Virus record (IMG/VR): IMGVR_UViG_3300027142_000062 | Coordinates: 1-22,424 of that record | Direction: 5' to 3' (one strand) | Source of the DNA: a virus | DNA length: 22,424 nucleotides | In this document: positions 2,680 through 16,404 of the stretch, piece by piece | Numbering within the stretch: position 1 is the stretch's first letter | How the letters are laid out: every line of letters begins with the position of its first letter | Program-made: the position numbers and the translations under genes | Notes under the pieces: generated by a model | What the model was told of the DNA's origin: nothing | Seen by the model: the letters and a program-made list of their open reading frames with translations, nothing else | The model's database searches: none

Positions 2680-2986
2680 CACCCAGAGCACGATTACGGC
2701 CGCCGACGGCGCGGTCACCTTGGCCTACCGCCAGTTCTTCAACGGCGGCATTGGCGTCCAGGTGACGGGCACCTTTTCGGCCACGCTGTCGTTTGAGATG
2801 TCGATTGACGGCACGAACTTCGTGTCGGTGCTGGCGACCAATGTAAACTCTGGGGGCATCGCCACAACGACCACGGCGACCGGCATCTACAAGTTTGATG
2901 TCGTCGGCGCGTTGGTGGTTCGGGTGCGGGCCTCGGCGTACACCTCTGGCACGGCGACGGTCACCGTGGTTGGGATGGCCGGGTGA
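2660..2986 (+). CDS. Beta-rich virion protein, probable head decoration or fibre component
   Basis: 108 aa, ATG 2660 with AGGAG (2648-2652) 7 bases upstream, inside the end of the endonuclease gene. The sequence is almost entirely short alternating beta strands rich in Thr/Val/Gly, with an FEMSIDGTNFVSV strand-loop typical of small phage beta-sandwich structural proteins. It has no signal peptide or membrane segment. Its stop overlaps the GTG of the next gene, the N-terminal part of the spike module, so a role in the same surface structure is plausible. No precise family is recognised. Confidence 0.75.
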   Translation: MPNFRNSTQSTITAADGAVTLAYRQFFNGGIGVQVTGTFSATLSFEMSIDGTNFVSVLATNVNSGGIATTTTATGIYKFDVVGALVVRVRASAYTSGTATVTVVGMAG

Positions 2987-3219
2987 GCGACAGCGATTTC
3001 TTCGGAGGGCGTCGTCGCCGCCGGGGGAACGGGGGCAGCGGCCTGACGCTCTTTTCATGGGTCGTCGGTGAGGGTGTCTCGGGCGGGACGTTCGCCCGGA
3101 CGGGTGACGCGACGTACAACGCGATCCAGCCGCCGTTCCTGCTCTGGGATTACACGGATGGTGTCTCGGGCGGGACGTTCGCCCGGACGGGTGACGCGAC
3201 GTACACTGCGGAGAGCTAA
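2983..3219 (+). CDS. Split N-terminal segment of a spike/fibre protein, with internal duplication
   Basis: 78 aa, GTG start overlapping the preceding TGA. After an Arg-rich opening (GGRRRRRG) it carries GVSGGTFARTGDATY twice, 29 residues apart, each preceded by a hydrophobic LFSW/LLWDY stretch. In phage spike/fibre proteins of this type, a TFxRxxxATY strand normally lies just N-terminal to the LLLEPxRTNL segment. Here that segment is in the next ORF, in the same reading frame, behind TAA (3217-3219) and one extra codon. The product may be a separate subunit completing the next two proteins, the remnant of an interrupted gene, or the front of a readthrough product. Independent translation of the next gene is supported by a GGAG before it. 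Confidence 0.6.
   Translation: MSDSDFFGGRRRRRGNGGSGLTLFSWVVGEGVSGGTFARTGDATYNAIQPPFLLWDYTDGVSGGTFARTGDATYTAES
3073..3118 (+). repeat. 46-bp direct repeat, copy 1
   Basis: This copy is identical base for base to 3160-3205, and three further bases upstream differ at only one position. The period is 87 bases, exactly 29 codons, so the reading frame is kept. The lack of third-position changes points to a recent duplication or ongoing gene conversion. Confidence 0.9.
3160..3205 (+). repeat. 46-bp direct repeat, copy 2
   Basis: Second copy of the repeat at 3073-3118, ending 12 bases before the TAA that separates this ORF from the spike body. Recombination between the copies would delete exactly 87 bases and leave the frame intact. 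Confidence 0.9.
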
Positions 3220-3222
3220 CCG

Positions 3223-4377
3223 ATGGCCTTGACCGTAGCGACCGCAGGGACGGGAGTAGCGCGGACGGCGCACTATGTGACCCCGACCGGGGCGAGTGCG
3301 CCAATCCAGACGCTCCTGCTTGAACCTCAGCGGACGAATCTTGCGCTCCGTAGTGAGGATGTCACGAACGCCGCGTGGACGACTTCGGCGGTTGGGACCG
3401 TGGCGGTGGCCGACCAGACCACGGCCCCCGATGGGTTGGTGACGGCGGACCTGTTTCGTGAGGACACGAGCACAGGAAATCACTACAACTCGCAGTCGCC
3501 AAGCGTGACGAACGTGGCACACACGTTCTCTGTGTTTTACAAGTTGGCCGCTGGTACGCGCAAGATCGCGTTGTATCACGCTGGCACCAACGTCGGGCGG
3601 CAGTTTGACGCGAGCGGCAATAACGACGCTGGCGCGTTCAACGTTCCGGCGGGCGGCTACGGCGTCGAGACGTATGGCAACGGATGGTTCCGAGCGTGGA
3701 TTACTACGACCCCGGCGGCGGGGACTGCGTCGTGGCGGATGTGGTTGGTGACATCGGCCAACGTGTTGAACTACACGGGCGACGGGACGAGCGGGTTTTA
3801 CGTCTGGGGCGCACAGGTTGAAGCGGGGGCGGTTCCCTCCTCGTACATCAAGACCGAGGGGACGACGGTGACGCGGAACGCGGACAGCCTCTACTTCCCG
3901 TTTACCGTGCCACCGCAAGCGATGACGGTGTATGTGCGGGGGGTCAATGTTGGTGCATACCAGAGCCAGACAAACGCCGCACGCGTGTTGCACATTGGTG
4001 ACATCAATACGGGAACCGACCCCCGCTTTTCGCTGGTGCGAAATGCTGGCGCAAGTCAGGTGCAAACACTTTATGACGACGGCGTGACGCTGCGTTCCGG
4101 CAACGCTACGCCGTCGCCTACTCCCGTGTTGAGCGACATCATTGAGCATCGCGGCGTGCTTTCGTCATCGTGGGTGCCGTCAAGTGGCATCAGCGTTAAC
4201 GGCGGAGTCGAGCAGACGGGCACGACGACTGCCTCTGGCCCTGCAACGGCGTGGGCTAATCCGCGCCTCTATATTGCTGGTTACGCGGACCACGACCAGT
4301 TCGCCTACACCCACATCGCGGTGGTCCCGGGGGTGCAGTCGATGGCGGAGATGCGAGCGATTGCGGGGGTGTCGTAA
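3223..4377 (+). CDS. Spike/fibre protein, copy A (N-terminal strand missing)
   Basis: 384 aa. The N-terminal region has VATAGTGVAR (5-14) and LLLEPQRTNL (31-40), a jelly-roll with YTGDGTSGFYVWGAQVEAG (184-202), then a linker to a second beta-sandwich (about 220-384) ending in a VQSMAEMRAIAGVS helix. This layout is known from phage head-spike/fibre proteins with concanavalin/LamG-like domains that bind glycans or host surfaces. ATG 3223 has GGAG 9 bases upstream (3210-3213). It is in the same frame as the small ORF before it and the paralogue after it, each separated by a single TAA. It lacks the TFxRxxxATY strand expected before LLLEP, which is found twice in the preceding ORF. Confidence 0.85.
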   Translation: MALTVATAGTGVARTAHYVTPTGASAPIQTLLLEPQRTNLALRSEDVTNAAWTTSAVGTVAVADQTTAPDGLVTADLFREDTSTGNHYNSQSPSVTNVAHTFSVFYKLAAGTRKIALYHAGTNVGRQFDASGNNDAGAFNVPAGGYGVETYGNGWFRAWITTTPAAGTASWRMWLVTSANVLNYTGDGTSGFYVWGAQVEAGAVPSSYIKTEGTTVTRNADSLYFPFTVPPQAMTVYVRGVNVGAYQSQTNAARVLHIGDINTGTDPRFSLVRNAGASQVQTLYDDGVTLRSGNATPSPTPVLSDIIEHRGVLSSSWVPSSGISVNGGVEQTGTTTASGPATAWANPRLYIAGYADHDQFAYTHIAVVPGVQSMAEMRAIAGVS

Positions 4378-5523
4378 ATGGACGAGTTGATTGTCGCCAC
4401 CGCTGGCACCGGGGTCGCCCGCACCTCGCACTACGTTACTCCGACGGGGGCTAGCGCCCCGATCCAGACGCTCCTGCTCGAACCCCAGCGGACGAATTTG
4501 TGTATTCGGAGCGAGGAGTTTGATACGTGGACGAATATCAGTACCTGCAACGTCACCGCAAATGCTGTCGTCGCTCCAGACGGCACCACTACCGCTGACT
4601 TGCTTTCTTCAACTGTTACCGGTTCGAGCCGCGGGCAAACGATCACTTTTACCGGCGACGGTGAAAAGGCAATAGCTCTGTATCTCAAAGCTGGAACGTC
4701 GGCGTTGACTCAACTTCGCCTGCTTGACACAACGGCAAGCGCGTTCAGGCACACCGTCGCCGTTACTTGGGTTGCTGGTGTACCATCTTTGTCTACCGCT
4801 GGCGGAGCAGGTACGCTATATCCCGTTGAAGCATTGGCGAACGGCTGGTATCGCATCTTGTTTAGTGCGACGGGCGTGGTAGCGGCTAATGTCAACCAGT
4901 TACGCGTTCAACCAGACCCCGCAACAGGCACCGGCACCGTCTATGCGTGGGGCGCACAGGCCGAGAACGCCATCGTTCCGTCAAGCTACATCAAGACGCA
5001 AGCCACGACGGTCACGCGCAACGCCGACAGCCTCTACTTCCCGTTCACCGCGCCGCCGCAGGCGATGACGGTGTATGTGAGAGGGGTTGAGAACAACCGT
5101 GCAACAGACACACTCGCCGGTCAACTTGGTATTGTACAGATTTCAGATGCGGCAGGAAATGACGCATACTTTGCATTGATTAACCGAACCGGTTCTGCTG
5201 GGTATTCGAGCCTACACGACCCCGCCGCGCTTTCTATTTCTGGCGCAGTTGGAACTACGGTAACGCGGGGAGACTTGGTAGAGTTTGCTGGTGGAGTCCG
5301 AGCAAGCGGCGCGGCATTTCTGAGTATTAGTGTCAATGGTGGCGCGACGACATCAGGCGCTGACGGCACCGCGCAGGCATTTGCGGCAACGTGGTCTGGG
5401 CCGAGACTTTATCTGAACTCGCAGGGTAGCGTCAATCCCGGCCAGTTTGCTTTTACCCACGTCATCGTCGCTGCCGGTGAGCAGACGATGGCGACGATGC
5501 GTTCTCTCGCAGGAGTTGCCTGA
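4378..5523 (+). CDS. Spike/fibre protein, copy B (paralogue of copy A)
   Basis: 381 aa. It begins immediately after the TAA of copy A, in the same frame; GGGGGTG (4365-4371) is a possible ribosome binding site. The segments around VATAGTGVAR, VTPTGASAPIQT, LLLEPQRTNL, AWGAQ, PSSYIKT, TVTRNADSLYFPFT and PPQAMTVYVRGV are nearly the same as in copy A. The rest of the jelly-roll and the C-terminal domain differ strongly. Conserved scaffold with varied surface is what is expected of receptor- or glycan-binding paralogues. Parts of the gene (for example 4500-4800 and 5100-5350) are less GC-rich than the portal region. It also lacks the N-terminal TFxRxxxATY strand. Confidence 0.85.
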   Translation: MDELIVATAGTGVARTSHYVTPTGASAPIQTLLLEPQRTNLCIRSEEFDTWTNISTCNVTANAVVAPDGTTTADLLSSTVTGSSRGQTITFTGDGEKAIALYLKAGTSALTQLRLLDTTASAFRHTVAVTWVAGVPSLSTAGGAGTLYPVEALANGWYRILFSATGVVAANVNQLRVQPDPATGTGTVYAWGAQAENAIVPSSYIKTQATTVTRNADSLYFPFTAPPQAMTVYVRGVENNRATDTLAGQLGIVQISDAAGNDAYFALINRTGSAGYSSLHDPAALSISGAVGTTVTRGDLVEFAGGVRASGAAFLSISVNGGATTSGADGTAQAFAATWSGPRLYLNSQGSVNPGQFAFTHVIVAAGEQTMATMRSLAGVA

Positions 5524-11749: not shown

Positions 11750-12433
11750 GTGGCCGTTACCAAAGCCCAACTGATTGCGCTCACCCGCGAGACGATGGAC
11801 GCGGTCGCGTCGGATCGGTGGTCGGATGCGACCATCACGACCGTCCTTAGCAGCGTCTACGGGGATGAGTGGTCCAATATCCTCAACGCCCAGCCCTACT
11901 ACACCTTCGCCAAGCGGACGGTGACGACGGATGGCGACGGGATGGTGTCCTTCAGCGCCCTGTCTAGCGGCAGCGGGGACAGCCAGCAGAACTTCTACCG
12001 CGTCCTTTCGGTGTCAGACGGCAACGTGCTGTACACCCAGACGCGGTTCCAGGACGTGCCGCTGGCCACGACGACGAACTATCTGCCCACCTACCCGCGG
12101 CTCTTCTACACCGCCGGGCAGGCCCTGCAGATTCTCCCCGTGGCGGCCAGCACGACGCTGTATGTGTATGTCAACTACAAGCCGACCGCGTTCAACCAGC
12201 TGGCCACCGACAGCTCGGTCATCGACTTCCCGGACGGCGGGGAGCTGATCCTCGCCAACGAGGCCGGTGCGTCCCTGCTCAATAAGGGCGGGGCGGAGTC
12301 TGGGGCGGCGCGGGTCCTCCGGGAGGAGGCCCAGCTGTCGCGGACGCTACTGTTGGACGACCTCCGGCGCTACACCATCCAGCCCACGATGATGGCCTAT
12401 CCGGATCAGAAGTATGACTGGAGCGGCGGCTGA
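11750..12433 (+). CDS. Head-tail adaptor (connector) protein
   Basis: 227 aa. An N-terminal helix-rich part (KAQLIALTRETMDAVASDRW) is followed by a beta-rich core and a helical C-terminus (GGELILANEAGASLLNKGG, then LREEAQLSRTLLLDDLRRY). This is the usual build of gp10/gp4-like adaptor proteins that sit below the portal ring. Its position between the capsid genes and the propeller tail gene agrees. The start is GTG 11750, and upstream sequence is C/T-rich without a Shine-Dalgarno. The next in-frame ATG (11795) would remove the conserved-looking N-terminal helix. The TGA overlaps the following ATG. Confidence 0.75.
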   Translation: MAVTKAQLIALTRETMDAVASDRWSDATITTVLSSVYGDEWSNILNAQPYYTFAKRTVTTDGDGMVSFSALSSGSGDSQQNFYRVLSVSDGNVLYTQTRFQDVPLATTTNYLPTYPRLFYTAGQALQILPVAASTTLYVYVNYKPTAFNQLATDSSVIDFPDGGELILANEAGASLLNKGGAESGAARVLREEAQLSRTLLLDDLRRYTIQPTMMAYPDQKYDWSGG

Positions 12434-13965
12434 TGGCCCGGGAGCGCTTGGCGGACGCCCAGCCGCGGATGGACGGCGGGCTCAACAGCGTCTCGGATGA
12501 CATCTCGCTCCAGCCCAACCAGCTGCGGCAGACGGTCAATATGCGCCTGACGGACTATGGCGCGGCCAGCAAGCGGGGCGGCACCCAGCGCACCTCCACC
12601 GCCGCGCTGGCGGCCGCTTCGGTGCTGAACGGGTACACGTTCCAGCAGGACAGCGGGACGAACCAGATTCTGGCCATCTCCAATACGGACCTGTTCACGA
12701 CGACCTACGGGGCCTTCCCGCTCACCTACACGAATCAGGGCGGGACGTTCTCCACGACCGTGGCGCCCGACTTCGCGCAGTTCCGGGATGGCTCAGGGAC
12801 CGACGTGGTTTATATCGCAGACGGCGGCCTGCTCAACAAGTGGACCGGCACGACGCTGACCTCGGATATCGCGGGCACGGTGGCTGTGGACACGATTCAG
12901 GTCCACAATCAGCGCCTCTGGGGCTGTGGGAACAGCAGCTTCCCGGACAGCATCTTCTACTCCTCGCTAAATAACGGGGATGACCTTGGCAACGCTACGC
13001 CTCCGGCGGGGGGTGGCCAGATTATCGTCCGGACCTTTGGCGACGAGCGGATTGTCGGGCTGGCCTCGGTCAACACCAGCCTGCTCATCTTCCACCGGCG
13101 CGGGATCTCCCGCCTGACGGGGTACGGGCAGGACGACATCGTGGCGGCCCCGGCTGGACTGACGGCCGACGTAGGCACGATTGCCGCCAAAAGCATCGTG
13201 GCGAACAACAACATCGCCTACTTCATCTCGGAGCGCGGGCTCTACCGCTGCAACGAGTCCGAGGTGGCGGCGGTCGGCACCCCGACCAAGCCGGACCCCA
13301 TCCTGCCCATCATCCGGCAGCTGTCATCGTCAGACTTTGACAAGATTCGCGCTGTCATCAACCGAGCCACCAAGGAGCTGTGGATCACGATTCCCGGCTA
13401 TGGGTGCTACCAGTACCACACGGTGCTGGATGCGTGGTCGGGCCCGTGGAACGGCGCGTATATCAGCCCGGACACGACCGCGCTCTTCGAGACGATTAAC
13501 ACGAGCGGCCTGCCGGTCGTCCTGCGTGGCGACGCGAGCGGCTGGGTCAGCCTCTGCGATGCGCCGGGCGTAAACAAGGATAACGTCGCCGCTGCCGGGA
13601 CGGGGGGCGATGTGTACACGATGGTCGCCCAGTTCCATCGCCAGTATATGGGTGATCCAGCGCTGGCGAAGGCCCTGCGCTGGGGGTATCTGACGGCCCA
13701 GCTCAATGGCTCCCAGAGCTGCTCGGTGTCGTGGACAACCGATGAGGCCACGGGCGCGTATCAGCTTCCTACAAACACGGGAGGCGTTTGGTCTACGAGT
13801 GCAACCTGGGGCACGGGAGCGTGGTCTGGGCCAAAGAGCCGAAACTTCCGTGTCCCAATGGGTGGCACGGGGTACTTTCTTGATGTGACCATCACCGACG
13901 CTGGCACGGCGCTGCCGGTCTTCAGTCAGTGGCAAACCGAAACCTTCGCCTTGGGGCGTCGATAA
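12433..13965 (+). CDS. Beta-propeller tail hub / stabilisation protein (P22 gp10-like)
   Basis: 510 aa, ATG overlapping the adaptor's TGA, with GGAG (12420-12423) 9 bases upstream. The N-terminal signature RMDGGLNSVSDDISLQPNQL followed by VNMRLTDYGAASKRGGTQ is characteristic of phage tail proteins that wrap a repeated-blade propeller around the channel. The middle contains recurring strand pairs such as FRDGSGTDVVYIADGG, IQVHNQRLWGCGNSS and IAYFISERGLYRCNES, matching propeller blades. It ends in a beta-sandwich-like part. In P22 the gp10 homologue plugs the DNA channel and holds tail spikes. Here the two fibre genes follow at once, consistent with an attachment hub. Confidence 0.82.
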   Translation: MARERLADAQPRMDGGLNSVSDDISLQPNQLRQTVNMRLTDYGAASKRGGTQRTSTAALAAASVLNGYTFQQDSGTNQILAISNTDLFTTTYGAFPLTYTNQGGTFSTTVAPDFAQFRDGSGTDVVYIADGGLLNKWTGTTLTSDIAGTVAVDTIQVHNQRLWGCGNSSFPDSIFYSSLNNGDDLGNATPPAGGGQIIVRTFGDERIVGLASVNTSLLIFHRRGISRLTGYGQDDIVAAPAGLTADVGTIAAKSIVANNNIAYFISERGLYRCNESEVAAVGTPTKPDPILPIIRQLSSSDFDKIRAVINRATKELWITIPGYGCYQYHTVLDAWSGPWNGAYISPDTTALFETINTSGLPVVLRGDASGWVSLCDAPGVNKDNVAAAGTGGDVYTMVAQFHRQYMGDPALAKALRWGYLTAQLNGSQSCSVSWTTDEATGAYQLPTNTGGVWSTSATWGTGAWSGPKSRNFRVPMGGTGYFLDVTITDAGTALPVFSQWQTETFALGRR

Positions 13966-15345
13966 ATGGCAACGACGGTTGGACAGCATCCAGTCAGTAA
14001 CCTTACTTCTCCGGTCAACGGCGATCCCCTCAACGCCGATGTGGTGCGGAGCAACGATAATACCGTGCGGTCGGCGTATGTGGACCATGACGCTGACCCC
14101 GGGATTCACGTCCAGTCATCAACGCTGGCTCTTCGGCCGGCCGCGGGTACGGCGGGGCGCAAGTGGATGACGGTCGATGGCACGGTGGTGCGGTATTGGT
14201 ACGACACGGGGTCGGTATGGGTCGAGGGCACGGCGGCTGGCCTGTCTTCGGCGCAGACAATCGCCTTGACTGGCGATGTGACCGGGTCGGTGTCCACGGA
14301 CCTATCGACCGGGGCCAGCATCGCAACAGCAATTGGGGCTGGTGTCATTGTTAATGCAGATATCAACGCCGCCGCCGCCATCGCGGACACCAAGCTGGCG
14401 ACCATCAGCACGGCAGGGAAGGTTAGCAACAGTGCCACGACCGCGACGAACGCCAATACGGCCAGCACCATCGTCGCACGCGATGCCTCCGGCAACTTCA
14501 GCGCCGGCACGATTACGGCTACACTGAACGGCGCGGCGCCGGCCGGGAGCCTGTCTGGCGCAACGCTAGCCTCTGGCGTGACCGCGTCGAGCCTGACCTC
14601 GGTTGGCACGATTACGACAGGGACTTGGAGCGCCTCAACGATTGCGGTGGCGCGTGGCGGGACGGGGGCGACGACGATCCCGACCAACGGTCAGTTGCTA
14701 ATCGGCAACGGCACGGGGTATACCGTGGCGAGCCTGACGGCTGGGTCGAACGTCACCATTACCCCCGGCGCGGGGTCCATCACGATTGCGTCGGCAAGCT
14801 CTGGTGGCGATGTCGTTGGGCCGGCGTCTGCGACAGACAATGCCTTGGTTCGCTTTGACCTGACCACGGGGAAGTTGGTGCAGAACAGCGGCACTACGCT
14901 GTCGGACACCGGAACGCTGGCGATGGCTGGCCTGCTGGATATTTCGAGCGCCAGCGCTGGGCAGATTAAGTTTCCGGCCACGCAGGTGGCGTCGTCGGAT
15001 GTCAATACGCTGGATGACTACGAAGAAGGCCCGTTCACGCCGACGGGCAACGGCATCACGTTTACGTCGGCGTCTGGGACGTATACGAAGATTGGACGGG
15101 CGGTCACCTTTCGGCTGGATGCACTGTGGCCGACAACGGCCAATGCGTCTAATGCGCGAATTGCCGGGTTGCCGTTTGCTCCAGCGGTGGGTACGGCGTT
15201 CGCGGTGTGGTCGGACAAGGGAACACAGGTGCAAGCGCTTTCGTCAGGATCGTCTGTATTCCTCTATGATGTCTCCGGGGTTGAGTACACGAATGCCAAT
15301 ATGAGTACGAAGGCGGTGTCTGTCTCAGGCGTCTACTTCGTCTAA
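13966..15345 (+). CDS. Tail fibre protein 1 (long, with collagen/stalk-like repeats)
   Basis: 459 aa, starting right after the propeller gene's TAA. Residues about 1-88 form an anchor domain shared with the next gene (TSPV, NDN, VDHxAD, a Trp-Val ending). A low-complexity Ala/Thr/Ser/Gly stalk follows (LTGDVTGSVSTDLSTGASIA, AINADINAA-like ADI/IADTKL repeats, ATTATNANTAST, ARGGTGATT). The C-terminus (from about 345, LDDYEEGPFTPTGNGITF, then GTYTKIGRAVTFRL) is a known phage fibre-tip type. It probably trimerises and reads host surface molecules. No chaperone gene is seen nearby. Confidence 0.85.
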   Translation: MATTVGQHPVSNLTSPVNGDPLNADVVRSNDNTVRSAYVDHDADPGIHVQSSTLALRPAAGTAGRKWMTVDGTVVRYWYDTGSVWVEGTAAGLSSAQTIALTGDVTGSVSTDLSTGASIATAIGAGVIVNADINAAAAIADTKLATISTAGKVSNSATTATNANTASTIVARDASGNFSAGTITATLNGAAPAGSLSGATLASGVTASSLTSVGTITTGTWSASTIAVARGGTGATTIPTNGQLLIGNGTGYTVASLTAGSNVTITPGAGSITIASASSGGDVVGPASATDNALVRFDLTTGKLVQNSGTTLSDTGTLAMAGLLDISSASAGQIKFPATQVASSDVNTLDDYEEGPFTPTGNGITFTSASGTYTKIGRAVTFRLDALWPTTANASNARIAGLPFAPAVGTAFAVWSDKGTQVQALSSGSSVFLYDVSGVEYTNANMSTKAVSVSGVYFV

Positions 15346-16055
15346 TGGGCGTCGGTGATTACCCAATCGCCCCGTTCACGTCGCCGGTCGGCATGGACCG
15401 AGCGGCGTATGAGACGCGGGGAAATGACAACGTCCTGCGGGACAAGTTCGTAGACCACCAGGCGGACGCCGTTGCGCATCCGACCTATGGACTGGACGCC
15501 AACAAGCCCACCCCGCCCGAGACGGGGATGATTTATGTGGCCACGGACACGGGCGTCTTCTGGTTTTACAATGGGACGACGTGGGTGTCCACGGCGGCGT
15601 TCCGGCAGTTTGGGGCGTGGCAGGACACAACCAACCAGACGGCGGCAGCAGCGAATACGGCATACGCGATGACGTTCAACACGCAGGACGTGGCAGACGG
15701 CATCACCTTGGTGAGTAGTTCTCAGCTGACGGTGCCGATGTCCGGCATCTACAACCTGCAATTCAGCGCCCAGCTGGTCAATACAGACTCCCAGATTCAC
15801 GACGTGGACATCTGGATTCGCAAGAACGGGACGGATTTGTCTGGGACGAACGGACAGGTTTCGGTGCCGAATAAGCACGGGGCGATAGATGGTCACGCCC
15901 TGCCCGCGTGGAACTACTTCCTGAGCCTAAACGCCAACGATTACGTTCAGCTGTACTGGTCTACCGGAAACGTCGCGTGTTCCCTGCAGGCGCTGGCGGC
16001 GGTCACTCCACATCCAGCCTCCGCGTCGGTCATTGTCACCATGAATCGTATTTAA
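15345..16055 (+). CDS. Tail fibre protein 2 (short, C1q-like tip)
   Basis: 236 aa, TAATG overlap with fibre 1. The first 85 or so residues align with the fibre 1 anchor (FTSPV, GNDNVLRDKFVDHQAD, DTGVFWFYNGTTWV), but no long stalk follows. Residues about 92-236 (WQDTTNQTAAAANTAYAMTF, GIYNLQFSAQLVNTDSQIHD, VDIWIRKNGTDL, YVQLYWSTG, ASASVIVTMNRI) form a jelly-roll of the C1q/TNF-like type used as a trimeric tip in many phage fibres. Shared anchor with a different tip means both could attach to the same hub site, together or as alternatives. Confidence 0.85.
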   Translation: MGVGDYPIAPFTSPVGMDRAAYETRGNDNVLRDKFVDHQADAVAHPTYGLDANKPTPPETGMIYVATDTGVFWFYNGTTWVSTAAFRQFGAWQDTTNQTAAAANTAYAMTFNTQDVADGITLVSSSQLTVPMSGIYNLQFSAQLVNTDSQIHDVDIWIRKNGTDLSGTNGQVSVPNKHGAIDGHALPAWNYFLSLNANDYVQLYWSTGNVACSLQALAAVTPHPASASVIVTMNRI

Positions 16056-16057
16056 CG

Positions 16058-16222
16058 ATGCCGAAACGCAAGGTCGCCTTCTGGCGCACCAAGAACCCCG
16101 AGAAGTCCTCGACCCCCCTTACCCCCGCGCAGAAGGCAAAGGCCAAGGCGCGGGCCGAGGCGGCGGGGCGACCCTATCCGAACCTCGTCGATAACGCCGC
16201 GGTGGCGCGAGGGAGCAAGTAA
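16058..16222 (+). CDS. Tiny basic phage protein
   Basis: 54 aa, ATG 16058 two bases after the fibre 2 stop; no clear Shine-Dalgarno, so translation is probably coupled. The sequence is Lys/Arg-rich with a KVAFWRTKNPEKSSTPLTPA opening and an AKAKARAEAAGRPYPNLVDN helix and ending. I recall similar short proteins near fibre and internal-protein genes of other environmental phages, but no function is known to me. The basic charge suits nucleic-acid or virion-interior binding. Confidence 0.7.
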   Translation: MPKRKVAFWRTKNPEKSSTPLTPAQKAKAKARAEAAGRPYPNLVDNAAVARGSK

Positions 16223-16404
16223 TGCCGATCCGTAGCAAGGCCCAACAGCGGGCGATGTACGCTGCCGCCGCCGGTCGCGGGAAGACCGGCATTTCCAAGG
16301 CCGTGGCCAAAGAGTACATTGAGTCCACGCCCACGTCTGCCTACGCCGACCTCCCCGAACGGGCGAAGCGGCGGATGGCCCTCAAGCGTAAGGGAGGTAA
16401 GTAG
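16222..16404 (+). CDS. Tiny basic protein with SKAQQRAMY motif
   Basis: 60 aa, ATG overlapping the previous TAA; GAGGGAG (16209-16215) 6 bases upstream is a good ribosome binding site. The opening RSKAQQRAMYAAAAGRGKTG and the Lys/Arg-rich end recall a widespread family of small phage and bacterial proteins with an SKAQQR start. Their role is unknown. It forms a pair with the preceding tiny gene, ahead of the ejection-protein block. Confidence 0.75.
   Translation: MPIRSKAQQRAMYAAAAGRGKTGISKAVAKEYIESTPTSAYADLPERAKRRMALKRKGGK

Follow-up and report, generated by a model that had tools for sequence, protein, structure and literature searches.

Tandem fibre genes with homologous N-terminal anchors and different tips beside a predicted adaptor-nozzle tail hub in an uncultured virus

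Dual receptor-binding proteins (RBPs) with swapped tips, as well as truncated RBPs, are already known, and the closest described systems are summarised here from excerpts of the papers cited. In SU10 (Kuravirus) the long fibres are docked on the adaptor and the short fibres on the nozzle (PMC9509320), which is a precedent for a tail with two sockets. Klebsiella phages of the KP32 and KP34 kinds have two RBPs, swapped tips, and single-RBP variants; in their two-RBP groups the first RBP comprises an anchor and a T4gp10-like domain and the second a short conserved peptide, while in KpV767 the second RBP is cut to 69 aa (PMC6872550). CBA120 possesses several tailspikes with related N-terminal domains, XD2 and XD3, that link the spikes to each other (PMC8825819). 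The C1q genes of marine and cryoconite phages are located beside or near a tail fibre gene and have a variable C1q domain, with a better conserved N-terminus in the marine phages (PMC3909814, PMC7468147), and the podovirus PhiGT1 shows an unusual hub, two paralogous tubeA adaptors and what its authors regard as a seeming surplus of tail fibre genes (PMC10386132).

The DNA analysed here, hereafter the window, is a virus record of 22,424 bases from an uncultured source, in which two fibre genes, F1 and F2, overlap by one base (TAATG) and are followed by small conserved genes (Table 1). The locus resembles SU10 in an adaptor and a nozzle of the same kinds and in what are presumably two kinds of fibre per tail; the SU10 fibres sit on two different proteins, whereas here the anchors are homologous and the genes adjacent. 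Two putative RBPs, swapped tips, and single-RBP variants are shared with the KP32/KP34 phages, but here both RBPs carry homologous anchors and a cut-down second anchor, parallel to that of KpV767, is found in three relatives, under purifying selection in the pair compared. F2 is not peptide-attached in the KP32/KP34 manner, in that it has a full anchor homologous to that of F1. Related N-terminal domains recall the CBA120 tailspikes, whose XD domains join spike to spike; in F1 the Pfam scan returned no family at E up to 1. A common N-terminal anchor of fibre and C1q protein, as seen here, is not reported in the available parts of the two papers on marine and cryoconite C1q genes, and in PhiGT1 it is the adaptor that is doubled, whereas here it is the fibre anchor, with one adaptor identified. 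The open-access literature searched yielded no description of tandem podovirus fibres with a common anchor.

Mu-type invertible fibres keep alternative tip genes in opposite orientation; this arrangement was rejected for the window, in which both genes are complete, lie on the + strand and have each their own anchor. New here are paralogous anchors faithful to their slots and, in three relatives, bare anchors; no close annotated relative of this lineage was found in the phage collection searched.

Table 1. Features of the tail and fibre region of the window.
Feature	Position	Strand	Basis or remark
Adaptor, tail, SU10-type	11750..12433	+	Pfam PF24175 SU10_adaptor, 27.8 bits vs cut-off 27
Tail nozzle with beta-propeller, probable hub	12433..13965	+	AF2 model, Foldseek/VIA
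F1, whole	13966-15345	+	459 aa
F1 anchor core, slot 1 (aa 1-50)	13966..14115	+	39-anchor alignment; DNA homology limits
F1 neck (aa 51-86), predicted beta strands, Trp-Val end	14116..14223	+	
F1 stalk, ARGGTGAT-type segment	14224..14910	+	phrog_31660 tail fiber, aa 217-281
F1 tip, GTYTKIG type (aa about 316-459)	14911..15345	+	tblastn to phage proteins
F2, whole	15345-16055	+	236 aa
F2 anchor core, slot 2 (aa 1-47)	15345..15485	+	DNA homology; predicted helix 19-39
F2 neck (aa 48-81)	15486..15587	+	phrog_20787 aa 47-83; predicted strands 63-66, 71-75, 80-84
F2 tip, C1q/BclA-like jelly roll (predicted)	15588..16055	+	VIA Z to BxpB, Caprin-2 C1q
Small protein MPKRKVAFW...	16058..16222	+	After F2; in L092/L093 between F1 and F2
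Conserved small gene, right-hand marker of fibre region	16222..16404	+	

An earlier note, made from the letters of the window, had proposed two fibres with a common anchor and different tips, and this is borne out by the comparison of the two proteins. F1 5-86 and F2 3-81 are 35% identical (BLASTP, pairwise E 2e-10), and the N-termini reach a Smith-Waterman score of 124, the maximum of 5000 shuffles being 51. The similarity lies mostly in the first 47-50 residues: the core alone (F1 1-50 v F2 1-47) scores 91 against a shuffle maximum of 48 (n=5000), while the neck alone (F1 51-90 v F2 48-86) is weak, its score being reached by 16 of 5000 shuffles. The tips are unrelated, with a score of 45 against a shuffle maximum of 64 (n=200). 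The motifs listed in the note are indeed found at matching places of F1 and F2, namely TSPV at 14 and 12, NDN at 30 and 27, VDHDAD at 39 and VDHQAD at 36, and Trp-Val at 85 and 80. In an alignment of 39 anchors from both slots, taken from the window and its relatives, M1, P16, N32, H41, D44, H48, P58, G64, and W85 (F1 numbering) are invariant. On this sequence evidence, the anchors of F1 and F2 are homologous.

In the model of the F1 anchor a helix (24-38) is followed by strands 66-71, 74-80, and 85-87, at a low confidence (pLDDT about 32-33 over the helix and 66-74 over the strands). The F2 model has a pLDDT of 86, with a low-confidence start (first 11 residues under 50), and predicts a helix at 19-39, neck strands within 63-84, and a jelly roll at 85-236; helix and strands are thus predicted in the same order in both anchors, that of F1 with low confidence. 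The anchor obtained no fold match of its own in the comparisons of the larger models, in which the matches went to the C1q domain and the propeller. Against PDB sequences the anchor profile retrieved repeat-protein matches and the Gp49 C-terminus of 9d83 (E 0.39), nothing usable, and F2 a single match at E 0.53.

The C1q-like tip ascribed to F2 agrees with the predicted fold of residues 85-236, a C1q/BclA-type jelly roll that is superimposed on BxpB with a VIA Z of 17.2 (rmsd 2.1, 133 residues) and on the C1q domain of Caprin-2 with a Z of 16.3 (rmsd 2.0, 128 residues; matches span 85/86-236); in Pfam this tip is below the curated cut-off, the sole match being BclA_C with 20.3 bits vs 38. The GTYTKIG motif, from which the tip type of F1 had been named, was found at residue 371. 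The C-terminal part of F1 gave weak to moderate tblastn matches in Synechococcus, Prochlorococcus, and Pelagibacter phages (best 20 of 29), and among the matches listed some of the phage proteins similar to the F1 tip are annotated as tail fibres. Ends of the S74 or collagen type are marks of fibres; Peptidase_S74 chaperone domains close both of the relatives' fibres that were scanned (F1 of L089 and F2 of L015), and the latter also contains collagen repeats.

The nozzle protein is without a Pfam match, and its profile retrieved a single match among PDB sequences, at E 2; in the lack of a usable sequence relative a fold search was needed, with the fold taken from the AF2 model of the nozzle together with the F1 anchor (mean pLDDT 74.7). 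The best counterpart is the protein of Pa223 (9nwi_Y; Foldseek E 7.9e-21; VIA Z 27.9 over 440 residues); SU10 (Z 26.4), P22 gp10 (Z 25.0), Pan3 and others are further fold matches, and T7 gp12 is present in the Foldseek list. The gene had been taken for a propeller hub, rightly so as far as the model tells, for it is predicted to be a nozzle-type beta-propeller. The adaptor gene, of the SU10/T7 type, adjoins the nozzle gene, and this order is kept in relatives; the Pfam match of the adaptor and the predicted fold of the nozzle point to a tail of the adaptor-nozzle kind, presumably a short one. In L009 and L015 the adaptor is 85% identical to that of the window and the nozzle only 50%; adaptor and nozzle of these phages appear to have separate histories.

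At the DNA level the window was compared with nine relatives (L008, L088, L089, L092, L093, L097, L098, L104, and L112). In seven of the nine, homology ends at 14120-14185 (F1 aa 52-73), while all of F1 is common to the window, L092 and L093; the F1 stalk is aligned in full length only in these two, and in short pieces in L089, L112, and L088. Homology restarts at the start of F2 (15339-15343), again in seven of nine, and at 15412 in L093; the sequence of L097 stops before F2. Inside F2 it is confined to the core in L098, L089, and L112 (up to 15484-15485, aa 47), continues up to 15561 in L088, covers all of F2 at 98% in L008, and ends at or near the contig end in L092, L093, and L104. The break after the F1 core and the core-only homology in F2 show a constant core anchor followed by exchanged parts. 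The anchor is therefore modular, with a core of ~47 residues, a swappable beta neck, and an exchangeable tip, and the tips have been exchanged between relatives. The neck is generic, neck-like stretches being present in other phage proteins (phrog_20787, phrog_1325 and others; Gp49 C-terminus of 9d83).

Slot 1 is defined as the gene directly after the nozzle. In a tree of 90 distinct anchors, built on 91 columns for 90 rows and with a bootstrap that had not settled, 64 slot-1 and 26 slot-2 anchors are separated by a branch with support 100/99.7. Slots were assigned by position, so that L158 and L185, whose nozzle frames are truncated or split, belong to slot 1 and L020 to slot 2. Under a labelling of 62 vs 28 that puts L158 and L185 outside slot 1, a single clade is rejected (p-AU 3.8e-82); that labelling was discarded, the positional labels separating fully. 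The tree needs a single slot change, which speaks for a single origin of the pair and gives no sign of copying between slots; it is consistent with one old duplication and no slot switching among the 90 anchors. The anchor profile retrieved 72 further loci, and in all of these the slot-1 anchor comes directly after a nozzle relative. Fibre length is not tied to the slot: in L015 and L018 slot 2 encodes 1419 and 1582 aa and slot 1 201 aa.

The earlier note had further supposed that both anchors may bind the same site of the hub. In such a case they would occupy one equivalent site per nozzle subunit, in a random or ratio-controlled mix, and the homology of the anchors, with nine invariant residues in 39, as well as the identical order of helix and strands in both anchor models, would suit it. 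However, anchors interchangeable at one site are expected to mix, and the 64 and 26 anchors never exchange slots despite recombining fibre genes and exchanged tips; the supposition is thus not supported by the sequences and is regarded as unlikely. Separate, non-interchangeable sockets fit better.

Two fibres with a duplicated anchor, whose slot-faithful copies each fit their own docking position, are held to be an arrangement slightly more probable than not. F1 and F2 would be two receptor-binding fibres on one short-tailed phage, each starting with a mounting module, made of an extended peptide and helix core (47-50 residues) and a beta neck, to which the tip is added; both anchor copies would come from one old duplication and would have stayed each in its own gene slot, the tips being replaced through recombination beside the core. 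The slot fidelity is most readily explained by each anchor having a docking position of its own on the adaptor-nozzle ring; the nozzle is the most likely partner of slot 1, and slot 2 would be docked at another place, which may be the adaptor. We infer that the fibres are trimers and that each virion carries both, for two receptors or for two contacts with one host, as we infer the docking sites, the receptors, and the direction of loss. The second fibre would be optional in evolution, either absent beside a longer single fibre or cut to a bare anchor.

Mirror-tree comparisons over 26 loci gave a partial r of 0.71 between slot-1 cores and the nozzle and of 0.44 between slot-2 cores and the adaptor, neither reached in 2000 permutations, and both signals exceed those with five neighbouring genes (15-23 loci each). 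Without the seven loci of the window clade the slot-2 signal with the adaptor falls to 0.10 and that with the nozzle climbs to 0.57, and the signal between slot 1 and the nozzle can be mere gene adjacency; what is left is a slight indication that slot 1 follows the nozzle and, as far as one clade goes, slot 2 the adaptor. It is very unlikely, in our judgement, that F2 docks on F1, or the reverse, in a branched complex as the second RBPs of G7C, KP32, and CBA120 do. Such complexes have been described (PMC6872550, PMC8825819, both seen in excerpts) and the F1 and F2 genes are adjacent, but a T4 gp10-like docking domain was not found in F1 (by Pfam alone, which is weak evidence), F2 has a whole F1-homologous anchor and not a short peptide, and the slot-2 anchor is kept where the stalk and tip of F1 are replaced.

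In L089, L098, and L170 the slot-2 gene stops after the neck, with 86-87 aa, and is directly followed by the next conserved genes; L090, L112, and L116 have the same DNA as L089, and no loose tip gene was seen by eye beside the bare anchors. Between the bare anchors of L089 and L098, dN is 0.045 and dS 0.595, which indicates a kept protein under purifying selection. L008 and L098, with nozzles at least 95% identical, form a natural pair with and without tip, L008 having a C1q tip in the same slot. A more specific proposal, tentative and on the whole doubtful, is that the anchor was duplicated once and that the copies then became specialised for different ring proteins, the nozzle in the case of slot 1 and the adaptor in that of slot 2; the bare anchors would be functional caps, filling the second socket in phages that lack a second tip.

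The slot-2 anchor is internal, without its own start codon, in 3 of 31 two-anchor junctions (L127, L141, and L214), and these cases count against simple N-terminal docking. In the same three loci, 176-383 residues with AFTLTGQ-type repeats stand in frame before the slot-2 anchor. The internal anchors are among the points in favour of a generic N-terminal module, which would serve the start of folding or trimerisation and not the docking on the tail; so are the resemblance of the neck half to widespread phage motifs, including those named above and the S-BM1 pair described below, and the distant relatives found via the C1q domain, in which C1q is behind an unrelated N-terminus directly after a distant nozzle in eight of nine loci viewed (of 38). 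Yet it is the core half that holds most of the F1-F2 similarity, all of the 72 newly fetched loci have the core after this nozzle, and purifying selection maintains it even where the tip is missing, so that a merely generic module seems quite improbable and tail docking is preferred.

At least 218 loci with a nozzle relative were collected, at least 129 of them distinct over 400 bases at the nozzle end; a junction was taken as complete if it reaches the right-hand marker genes. Among the matches listed, 18 of the 26 complete distinct junctions have two anchors and eight have one, which rules out that all relatives have two; the 103 incomplete junctions among these matches have two anchors in 13 cases, one in 45, and none in 45, the last being 38 distant relatives and seven sequences that end at the nozzle or no more than 90 bases from it. 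The window group accounts for one of the 18 dual junctions, two came from the F2 search only (L009 and L010), and 15 were retrieved by the anchor-1 or nozzle searches too. When complete loci among the matches listed are grouped at 95% nozzle identity, 14 dual and six single clusters are obtained. In the eight single junctions a lax search for a second anchor yielded, F1 apart, nothing better than noise (best E 1.1). Single loci have the longer F1, with cluster medians of 708-1117 aa against 201-797 aa in dual ones (Mann-Whitney p 2e-4, without correction for kinship). Of the 73 rows of the nozzle tree (midpoint root), 40 are of unknown state; single loci are nested in dual ones, with four changes, and loss of F2 is therefore the simpler reading of the direction.

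Two fibres, one long fibre, and a fibre with a bare anchor form a natural series in which the tail hub stays alike. With a changing number of RBPs on a similar hub, the series lends itself to studying the acquisition, retention, and loss of a second receptor by phages, and any need to cap a socket left empty. In L138, L146, and L154 a frame with HECRHDVLGTE.HPA.WFNGS was seen by eye at the place of F2 after the single long fibre. Other genes may lie between the fibres: a glycine-rich protein and a tail assembly chaperone in L010 (4543-5988; PF21722, PF16778), similar genes in L019 (3957-5443, by eye), and an RCC1-like repeat protein in L020 (3122-5010, by eye).

Among annotated phages the nozzle retrieved three weak records only and the slot-1 anchor none at E up to 0.1, while the slot-2 anchor retrieved 69 records, all of Synechococcus phages, with E 0.003-0.1 over residues 26-83 or 38-83 in the best 20 of 69. 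In the best match, S-BM1, two neighbouring genes resemble the neck (GTTAQRP...FYDGSGWE); as this likeness is confined to the neck, the Synechococcus phage records were rejected as anchors. The S-BM1 genes (L226 1425-3556) encode two neighbouring hypothetical proteins with a neck-type motif near their N-termini and different C-terminal parts, and may be a further tandem pair that starts alike. An Acidobacteria host was considered on a single match, a 3.7-kb contig of an Acidobacteria bin, and dismissed as too weak.

Elsewhere in the window, three open frames (2983-3219, 3223-4377, and 4378-5523) share one reading frame over positions 2983-5523. The second and third are tandem paralogues (phrog_5939 tail protein) with a common 'HYVTPTGASAPIQTLLLEPQRTNL' start and make up a second doubled gene in the same genome, probably a structural one. 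Upstream of them, the part 'GTFARTGDATYTAES' is closed by an in-frame TAA (3217-3219) that shortly precedes the frame at 3223-4377. A Recombination endonuclease VII gene (2212-2679; PF02945, 65.4 bits) follows the terminase gene, and a frame resembling an endonuclease VII gene was noticed by eye in the fibre region of L146.
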